Assembly (NCBI GenBank): GCA_021324015.1
Contig: JAJPJX010000174.1
Coordinates: 1-64,000 of the forward strand
DNA length: 64,000 bases
Direction: 5' to 3'
From: Solibacteraceae bacterium
GTDB taxonomy: Bacteria; Acidobacteriota; Terriglobia; Bryobacterales; Bryobacteraceae
Made by a program: the position numbers and the translations under genes. The notes below the pieces were generated by a model. That model ran no database searches and was not told the DNA's origin. It worked only from the letters and a program-made list of their open reading frames with translations. The stretch's first letter is position 1. Each line of letters starts with the position of its first letter. Shown here piece by piece: positions 50,175 through 51,948 of the stretch.

Positions 50175-51182
50175 GTGCAACAACCGACAAATCCAAAACG
50201 CCGCGACGTGTTGGGCGCCCTGGCGACCGCCCCTTTGGCGGCGGCCCTGCCGGCGGGCCTGGATGCGGACACCCGCTCGGGAGACATGATCTATCGCACG
50301 CTGGGAAGGACCGGAGAGAAAGTCTCCGCGATCGGCTTGGGGGGGTACCATATCGCCGTCCCAACCGACGAGCAGGAAGGCATCCGGCTGGTCCGGACGG
50401 CGGTGGACCGCGGCATCAACTTTCTGGATAACTGCTGGGACTACCACGACGGCAAAAGCGAAGTCTGGATGGGCAAAGCGCTGCGCGACGGCTACCGGCA
50501 CAAGGTCTTCCTGATGACCAAGTTCGATGGGCGCACCAAGGCCTCCACAGCGCGCCAGATCGACGAATCGCTGGCGCGGCTCCAGACCGACCATGTGGAC
50601 CTGATGCAATACCACGAGAATATCCGCATGGAGGATCCGGACCGCTTCTTCGCGCCGGACGGGCCGCTCGAAGCCCTGCTGGAAGCCAGGAAAGCGGGCA
50701 AGATCCGCTACATCGGGTTCACCGGCCACAAGGACCCCGCGGTGCACCTGCGCATGCTCGAGGTGGCGGCCCAGCACAACTTCCACTTCGACGCGGCGCA
50801 GATGCCCCTCAACCTGCTGGACGCGCATTTCCGCAGCTTTGCGCGGCTGGTGGTGCCCAAGCTGGTGGCGCAGGGGATCGGTGTTCTGGGGATGAAACCC
50901 ATGGCCTTCGGAAACCTACCTAAAGACGGCCTGGCCAGCGGCATCGAGTGCCTGCACTACGCGCTGAACCTGCCCACTTCGGTGGTGATCACCGGCTGCG
51001 ACAGCATGGACCGGCTGCACCAGGCGCTGGAGGCGGCGCGCACCTTCAAGCCTCTGAGCGAGACGGAACTTTCGGCCTTGCTGGCAAAGACGCGCCAGGC
51101 CGCGCTGAGCGGCCGGCTGGAGCCGTTCAAAACCACATCCCAGTTCGACGGGACGGCGCAGCACCTGGAGTGGATGGGATAG
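50175..51182 (+). CDS. Tat-exported aldo/keto reductase
   Basis: 335 residues from a GTG with CGGAGGTG upstream. The leader NPKRRDVLGALATAPLAAAL is twin-arginine. The TIM barrel follows: MIYRTLGRTGEKVSAIGLGG (about 38-57), INFLDNCWDYHDGKSEVWMG with the catalytic Asp and Tyr, VFLMTKFDGRT (Lys) and DLMQYHENIRM (His). NADPH would have to be loaded before export. It follows the Gfo/Idh/MocA gene by 53 bases and may act on the same substrate. Confidence 0.9.
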   Translation: MQQPTNPKRRDVLGALATAPLAAALPAGLDADTRSGDMIYRTLGRTGEKVSAIGLGGYHIAVPTDEQEGIRLVRTAVDRGINFLDNCWDYHDGKSEVWMGKALRDGYRHKVFLMTKFDGRTKASTARQIDESLARLQTDHVDLMQYHENIRMEDPDRFFAPDGPLEALLEARKAGKIRYIGFTGHKDPAVHLRMLEVAAQHNFHFDAAQMPLNLLDAHFRSFARLVVPKLVAQGIGVLGMKPMAFGNLPKDGLASGIECLHYALNLPTSVVITGCDSMDRLHQALEAARTFKPLSETELSALLAKTRQAALSGRLEPFKTTSQFDGTAQHLEWMG

Positions 51183-51219
51183 CGGGCGGCGGGCAACCAG
51201 CGGTGGAAATTGGCTTCAA

Positions 51220-51236
51220 CCGGTCAAGTTGACCGG
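51220..51236. repeat. palindrome CCGGTCAA-g-TTGACCGG
   Basis: A perfect 8-bp inverted repeat with one central base in the 142-base convergent spacer between the aldo/keto reductase and the AhpD-like gene. It shares its arms (CCGGTCA) with the second palindrome at 51280-51304. Confidence 0.6.
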
Positions 51237-51279
51237 AAACGGCACGAGCAGTCCTTTAGTATCAGCCACTTGGGGGAAC

Positions 51280-51304
51280 ACAACCGGTCAACGTGACCGG
51301 TTGT
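51280..51304. repeat. palindrome ACAACCGGTCA-acg-TGACCGGTTGT
   Basis: A perfect 11-bp inverted repeat with a 3-base loop. Centre-to-centre distance to the first palindrome is 64 bases, close to six helical turns. No T tract, so a typical intrinsic terminator is not evident; a bidirectional terminator hairpin or paired operator sites are possible. Confidence 0.6.
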
Positions 51305-51324
51305 GGGATCTGTGCAACGGGTTG

Positions 51325-51948
51325 CTAGCTGCGCATGTAGCCGTGCGCGGCGGTCCGTTTCCCGCCCTCGCGGTGGGCTTCGTCCGATAGAGCGTGCACA
51401 CCGCTGGCGTCAATCCAGCGGTTGTAGAAGTTGAACAGGGCGCACACCGTGATGGCAAAGTAGATGGCTTCGTCGTCCCAGCCAACCTGGTAGAGGGGCT
51501 GCATGTCTGCCGCCGTGATGCGCGGCGAGTCGTGGTTCACTTTGTCCACAAAGCGGAACAGGGCCTTATGCTTCGCGTCGAGCGCGGAGGTCTTGATGTC
51601 CCGTAACACACCCTTCACGAGCTCTTCGCTGCCCAGCAATTCCGCCGCAACTGCGGCGTGGGACTTCAGTCAAAACGGGCACTGATTCCGCCCCGAGGTA
51701 TAGGCGGCGATCAGCTCGCGCAAGCCCGGGCTGAGCGGCGCGGGCCCGCGCAGAATCTCCTGCGTAAATCGCGCCAGGTGCTCAGTGGCTTTGGGCAGGT
51801 AGGCGAACAGGTGCCAGATCTGAGGATATTCGCTGCCGCTCTCCTGCATCGCGCGCAACAGGTTGAAATAGGGTCCCGGCTTGGGGTTTTGCTCCACGGC
51901 GGGAAGAAACATCGGCTTCATCTTGGGGTTCTGAGGGTGAGACGGCAT
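51325..51948 (-). CDS. AhpD-like peroxidase-related protein, probable selenoprotein (in-frame TGA)
   Basis: A single 207-codon frame if the TGA at 51670-51672 is read as selenocysteine (residue 93). Upstream of it: LSPGLRELIAAYTSGRNQCPF; downstream: LKSHAAVAAELLGSEELVKG. Together this is the AhpD/carboxymuconolactone decarboxylase active site NxCxxC-x(3)-H, with the second cysteine replaced by the TGA: CPF-U-LKSH. Both halves keep frame and family similarity, with no deletion. ATG 51948 was chosen (TTG 51972 also possible). The role would be a thiol/selenol-based peroxidase. If selenocysteine is not inserted, only a 92-residue fragment results. Confidence 0.8.
51643..51658 (-). promoter_or_regulatory. 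candidate bacterial SECIS hairpin
   Basis: Reading the minus strand after the TGA, 11 bases are followed by CGCCGC-AGTT-GCGGCG: a perfect 6-bp stem with a 4-base loop whose second base is G. The loop starts 17 bases after the TGA. The described bacterial SECIS consensus asks for a loop 16-37 bases after UGA, a stem of at least 4 bp, and a G among the first two loop bases; all three are met. Confidence 0.65.

Follow-up and report, generated by a model that had tools for sequence, protein, structure and literature searches.

AhpD-like proteins with selenocysteine (Sec), the rarely used 21st amino acid, in a CxxU motif were described in 2005 for the Sargasso Sea (PMC1088965) and in 2008 for the GOS survey (PMC2398784), and the passages of a 2026 review considered here list TIGR01926 as a CxxU selenoprotein family, citing PMC1088965 (PMC13188914). 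For the Acidobacteria, the corresponding passages give 4 selenoproteins in 3 families in a 2006 survey (PMC1794560) and 3 known selenoprotein genes in one Acidobacteriota genome in 2025 (PMC12013277). In the titles and abstract openings of the open-licence PMC literature on selenoproteins of Acidobacteriota, Bryobacter or Solibacter, no report of the gene treated below was found for the phylum.

Two described systems serve as reference. In Mycobacterium tuberculosis AhpD, the relay consists of Glu118, Cys130, His132, Cys133 and His137, according to the part of PMC3141380 considered. For the bacterial SECIS element (bSECIS), section 5 of the 2026 review gives a loop of 3-9 nt, a stem of 4-16 bp and an MFE <= -7.5, with a G in the first two loop positions, mostly N1-N2 pairing and a distance of 16-37 nt from the UGA (PMC13188914).

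The locus analysed here lies in a window of 64,000 nucleotides, meaning the whole stretch of DNA that was analysed. Its product has the family, the CxxU motif, the Sec position within the motif and the bSECIS hairpin in common with the TIGR01926 CxxU selenoproteins as listed in the review; the listed example is MCB9421940.1, whereas the window protein is from Acidobacteriota, and Sec is common to 72 of the best 80 of its 197 relatives. The gene is thus an Acidobacteriota member of the known AhpD-like selenoprotein family, and the family itself is not new. The first-pass annotation had already called the family known, which agrees with the TIGR01926 cut-off being passed and with the CxxU listing in PMC13188914.

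The AhpD-like gene and its product

The features of the locus are as follows.

51325 to 51948, minus strand: predicted AhpD-like (TIGR01926 / PF02627) selenoprotein gene, 207 residues, ATG start, Sec at residue 93
51670 to 51672, minus strand: in-frame TGA, predicted to be read as selenocysteine, second position of the CxxC motif
51643 to 51658, minus strand: putative SECIS hairpin CGCCGC-AGUU-GCGGCG, an A-U pair closing the GU loop
52013 to 54304, minus strand: cytochrome c / PQQ beta-propeller dehydrogenase-like gene, upstream neighbour of the selenoprotein gene
50175 to 51182, convergent with the selenoprotein gene: aldo/keto reductase gene, downstream neighbour

The first-pass annotation, which names no strand, had taken two short frames for one continuous AhpD-like gene, and the minus-strand translation bears this out: the frame opens with the ATG at 51948, closes with a stop whose last base is 51325 and holds 207 residues with a single interruption, the TGA at 51672-51670. 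This codon is residue 93, in the context RELIAAYTSGRNQCPF-U-LKSH (RNQCPF-U-LKSH), and aligns with the position at which Cys homologues have the second Cys of CxxC, so that the annotated placement at the second catalytic cysteine (CPF-U-LKSH) holds. The gene does break under the standard reading, as had been expected; table 11 translation yields the two ORFs 51972-51670 and 51639-51325.

The cytochrome c/PQQ-propeller gene lies 64 bp before the selenoprotein start and is, by proximity and shared strand, a possible transcriptional neighbour. Two near-identical palindromes, CAACCGGTCAAGTTGACCGG (51217-51236) and CAACCGGTCAACGTGACCGG (51279-51305), 64 bp apart, lie in the gap where the aldo/keto reductase and selenoprotein genes converge. 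With up to 3 mismatches allowed, the pattern occurs at these two sites only within the window, and the pair may represent paired terminators or protein-binding sites.

The product scored 90.6 bits against the peroxidase-related (AhpD-like) model TIGR01926 (curated cut-off 81.8) and 34.1 bits against the Pfam CMD model PF02627 (cut-off 23); all 15 sequences of the query alignment (11 Sec and 4 Cys) match TIGR01926 at E<=0.01. Two distantly related families of AhpD-type CxxU (seleno)proteins are NF041238 (AhpD_rel_CFYUT) and NF041047 (GSU3128). The window protein is not a member of the former, its 36.9 bits being far under the 175-bit cut-off, and NF041047 gave no match at E 0.01.

An AlphaFold2 model calculated from 40 aligned sequences reached a mean pLDDT of 95 and shows the helical AhpD/CMD fold. 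Its best matches among solved structures were the AhpD-like peroxidase-related proteins 3c1l, 6k40, 2oyo and 2pfx (24-26% identical), and a profile search was in agreement. Together with 2prr, they are the closest to the window protein by sequence profile and fold, at 21-26% identity in fold alignments; they are "peroxidase-related" by structure title, the function of most not being established there. M. tuberculosis AhpD (1gu9, 1knc) has the helical fold in common with the model, its chains being weak matches (Foldseek E 0.1 to 0.45).

E78, C90, C/U93 and H97 are invariant across the 40 aligned rows, with Sec counted as Cys; the nearest aligned relative is 82% identical to the window protein. 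Compared with the M. tuberculosis relay as given in the part of PMC3141380 considered, these residues correspond, with the same spacing, to Glu118, Cys130, Cys133 and His137, Cys133 being replaced by Sec. His132 is Phe92 here (CPFU), so that four of five positions are kept and the full relay is not conserved.

Cys/Sec exchange, SECIS hairpin and decoding machinery

Searching 396 genomes of the phylum, 30 were found to match the protein at E<=1e-20, 11 of them with TGA as the U codon of CxxU. A scan of a GTDB-based collection found 197 relatives; among the best 80 of these, the site is TGA in 72 and a Cys codon in 8, a ratio that leans to Sec given the 11 Sec and 4 Cys rows of the query alignment and the restriction to the best 80. 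The Cys/Sec alternation at residue 93 that the first-pass annotation had proposed to look for is thereby present. By their titles, the best 80 of 197 comprise one Cyanobacteria entry (L096), one Gemmatimonas entry (L129) and otherwise Acidobacteriota taxa, and at least two assemblies among them have two loci each. In isolate JOPF155, a Sec locus (L130, JASHTO010000084.1) and a Cys locus (L150, JASHTO010000275.1) lie on different contigs.

The hairpin at 51658-51643 (CGCCGC-AGUU-GCGGCG) has six G-C pairs and a 4-nt loop that starts 17 nt downstream of the UGA. With its loop AGUU, 6 bp, a distance of 17 nt and a centroid energy of -12.4 kcal/mol, it lies within the bSECIS constraints as section 5 of PMC13188914 gives them. 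The fold of the 48-nt stretch alone is unremarkable for G+C-rich DNA (z -0.49; 54 of 200 shuffles fold as well or better), and the window had no Rfam match at gathering thresholds; the significance of the hairpin therefore depends on comparison with relatives.

For this comparison, 122 distinct rows (80 Sec, 42 Cys) were retained from 125 found. All six stem pairs are present in 71 of the 80 Sec rows; drawing synonymous codons at random gives 15%, and among the 12 close Cys rows 2 have the full set. Eight of the nine remaining Sec rows have five pairs and one has four. The pair closing the GU loop is formed in all Sec rows except one (79/80) versus 3 of the 12 close Cys rows. For the SECIS pairing, Fisher p was 1.5e-20, which overstates independence since the rows are related. 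Among the 71 Sec rows with GTN (Val) in the loop, the closing pair is G-C in 42, A-U in 29 and mismatched in none, its bases being third positions of Ala and Val codons and hence synonymous sites. Taking all Sec rows with either pair, at least 14 switches between G-C and A-U are needed on a quick tree with weak support for 42 of its 117 inner branches. Since the bSECIS model of PMC13188914 already includes the N1-N2 pair, this covariation is a confirmation and not a discovery. The stem-loop placed at SECIS distance in the first-pass annotation is thus recovered within the published constraints, with its pairing kept in Sec rows and weaker in close Cys homologues.

The genome, an 8.23 Mb assembly of 214 contigs, is 98.8% complete with 4.2% estimated contamination. 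It contains selA (489.4 bits, cut-off 267.9), selD (368.9 bits, cut-off 125) and selB (381.6 bits, cut-off 242.25, a model exceeding its cut-off in 2 of 14 control genomes). AIRS_C, with seven matches in the genome, was insufficient to single out SelD, and the selD model settled its identity. A tRNA-Sec scored 69 bits in RF01852 (gathering 47) and was called tRNA-SeC with anticodon tca by ARAGORN; two further RF01852 matches (48 and 47 bits) were rejected, as ARAGORN calls them tRNA-Ser. ARAGORN found no tRNA in the window.

That the organism would decode selenocysteine, as the first-pass annotation had supposed, is supported by this set of four genes. Each of the four genes lies on a contig other than that of the window, so they could in principle be contaminants; this origin is less likely given that selB was over its cut-off in all 11 TGA-form genomes of the phylum search. 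These belong to the 20 of 30 matching genomes examined for selB. Among the remaining nine, selB was absent in three close Cys-form genomes (G217, G359, G370) and present in the fourth (G086); among five genomes with distant Cys forms only, it was present in G368 and G334 and absent in G171, G273 and G094.

Further genes of the genome carry an in-frame TGA. SelD itself (L069, G000:C212:21951-22874) is a selenoprotein candidate, with TGA in KAAG-U-ASKLS. Internal TGA codons occur in 3 of 18 AhpC/TSA-domain matches. Two of the three have it at a redox position, a peroxiredoxin (L156, G000:C191; FTGG-U-TKE) and a redoxin (L158, G000:C72; ADW-U-PYC, UxxC). The third, a deiodinase-like gene (L170, G000:C101:67300-70000, match 68546-68788; PF00837, 104.2 bits vs 27), has TGA in SYT-U-PPF, the Sec position of deiodinases, and is a second strong selenoprotein candidate of the genome. 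By eye, on the single sequences, SelD, L156, L158 and L170 each allow a candidate hairpin downstream of the TGA whose apical loop contains a G. The eight Molybdopterin-domain (formate dehydrogenase-type) matches are all free of stops over the matched region.

By its gene content, this Acidobacteriota genome shows selenocysteine decoding with at least five candidate selenoprotein genes, a floor for the families covered (AhpD-like, SelD, AhpC/TSA and formate dehydrogenase-type). Separately, a gene resembling arsenosugar biosynthesis-associated peroxidases (L026, G000:C192, match 67288-67524) is interrupted by an in-frame TAG that lies away from the CxxC motif, possibly reflecting a pseudogene, an error or another cause; it scores 186 bits against TIGR04169 when the stop is read as X.

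Evolutionary history and gene neighbourhood in relatives

The distribution of Sec and Cys needs three changes on the quick tree of 120 rows and two on a careful tree of 98 rows, which was built without L053, L054 and L064 (two with Cys, one with Sec) and without 19 of the 27 outgroup rows. On the careful tree, the 12 close Cys rows stand among Sec rows under branches with support 100/99 and 97/98; support is weak for the branches closest to them and 71/86 for the Cys clade itself. The Sec rows formed one clade in 0 of 200 bootstrap trees. Constraining them to one clade cost 27.6 log units, but the AU test gave p 0.105, so that a single clade is not rejected.

With the distant Cys rows as outgroup, the simplest reading of the tree would be one Sec gain followed by one Sec-to-Cys change. 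This direction is helped by the weaker SECIS pairing in the 12 Cys rows and by selB being absent from three of the four genomes. Sec-to-Cys substitutions are described as rare, with FdhA and SelD as the main documented cases, in the passages considered of the 2026 review (PMC13188914). The fuller scenario, in which the Acidobacteriota AhpD-like subfamily was ancestrally Sec-containing and one lineage went from CPFU to a CEFC-type motif with decay of the SECIS element, selB being absent in three of four genomes and the gene being coupled to an MFS transporter in part of the family, is one we put forward tentatively, at slightly short of an even chance. As JOPF155 has both forms, its Cys form may be a paralogue, a transferred copy or the result of a mixed bin rather than of a plain reversion.

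Of the 77 loci whose sequence extends 900 bp or more downstream, 27 have a same-strand MFS gene (PF07690) after the AhpD-like gene; 26 of these abut, overlap or start within about 150 nt, and one (L122) lies about 1 kb away. L082, L091, L110 and L121 are among the loci where it follows directly. The coupling in part of the family may hint at a substrate beyond simple peroxides. The MFS gene of the relatives is not in the window, and a genome search at E<=1e-20, which had no positive control, found none; as a clue to the function of the window gene, the conserved neighbour therefore fails. A recurrent antisense ORF cluster (38 members at 36 loci) was discarded as spurious, 12 of 14 listed members overlapping the gene itself.

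Proposed mechanism and rival readings

We are highly confident that the two ORFs are one AhpD-like selenoprotein gene whose UGA is read as Sec and whose product is most likely a thiol/selenol peroxidase or adaptor. What the sequences themselves show is the gene with its fold family, the alternation of Sec and Cys, the covarying SECIS element and the presence of the decoding genes. That Sec is really inserted, which residues act in catalysis and what the substrate is are what we infer in the following scheme.

The hairpin just past the UGA would recruit SelB carrying selenocysteyl-tRNA-Sec, made by SelA with selenophosphate from SelD, and the UGA would then be decoded as Sec by ordinary bacterial insertion, as the genes present suggest. 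The product is predicted to fold as an all-helical AhpD/CMD protein with Cys90 and Sec93 as redox pair, Glu78 and His97 occupying the proton-relay positions Glu118 and His137 of M. tuberculosis AhpD, as far as the part of PMC3141380 considered describes them. Sec93 would attack a peroxide or disulfide and form a selenenylsulfide with Cys90, from which a thiol reductant would regenerate it.

A nonsense-mutated or mis-sequenced Cys-type AhpD-like gene, i.e., a pseudogene, would also present an in-frame stop; the codon is one base from a Cys codon, Cys homologues exist, and another CMD-family gene of the genome has an in-frame TAG. Sequencing error is implausible given TGA at the same codon in 72 of the best 80 of 197 relatives, and the otherwise intact frame, 82% identical to its nearest aligned relative, the SECIS element covarying across relatives and the Sec machinery in the genome further speak against this explanation, which we regard as extremely improbable. 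Equally negligible is the prospect that the UGA is reassigned to Trp or Cys or simply read through: nothing was found in its favour, with ARAGORN covering the window and six short loci for UGA-reading tRNAs, and against such a reading stand the tRNA-Sec (anticodon tca) with selA, selB and selD, the 71 of 80 TGA rows keeping all six SECIS-like stem pairs, and selB in 11 of 11 TGA-form genomes of the phylum search.

An alternative that leaves the selenoprotein assignment intact concerns the reaction. The protein could instead work as a thiol-disulfide oxidoreductase, or as a dehalogenase-like enzyme whose organic substrates are transported by the MFS protein of some relatives, in line with the downstream MFS gene in 27 of 77 loci and with the debrominase Bmp8 (6ohi/6ohj) being a weaker structural relative; yet 50 of the 77 loci are without that gene, it is missing from the window and from the genome at the threshold given above, and both the closest solved structures and the name of TIGR01926 point to peroxidase-related proteins. 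We consider this alternative unlikely, though worth keeping in mind, and a thiol/selenol peroxidase or peroxidase adaptor remains the most likely predicted function.

The AhpD-like Sec gene, which the table 11 reading splits into two short ORFs in the window, recurs in many collected genomes of Acidobacteriota. With their compensating loop pair, the 80 aligned Sec rows offer clean natural material for studying the rules of bacterial SECIS elements. A Sec-to-Cys reversion becomes testable through the nested Cys clade; if true, this reversion would be an AhpD-like addition to the rare cases of Sec-to-Cys change.
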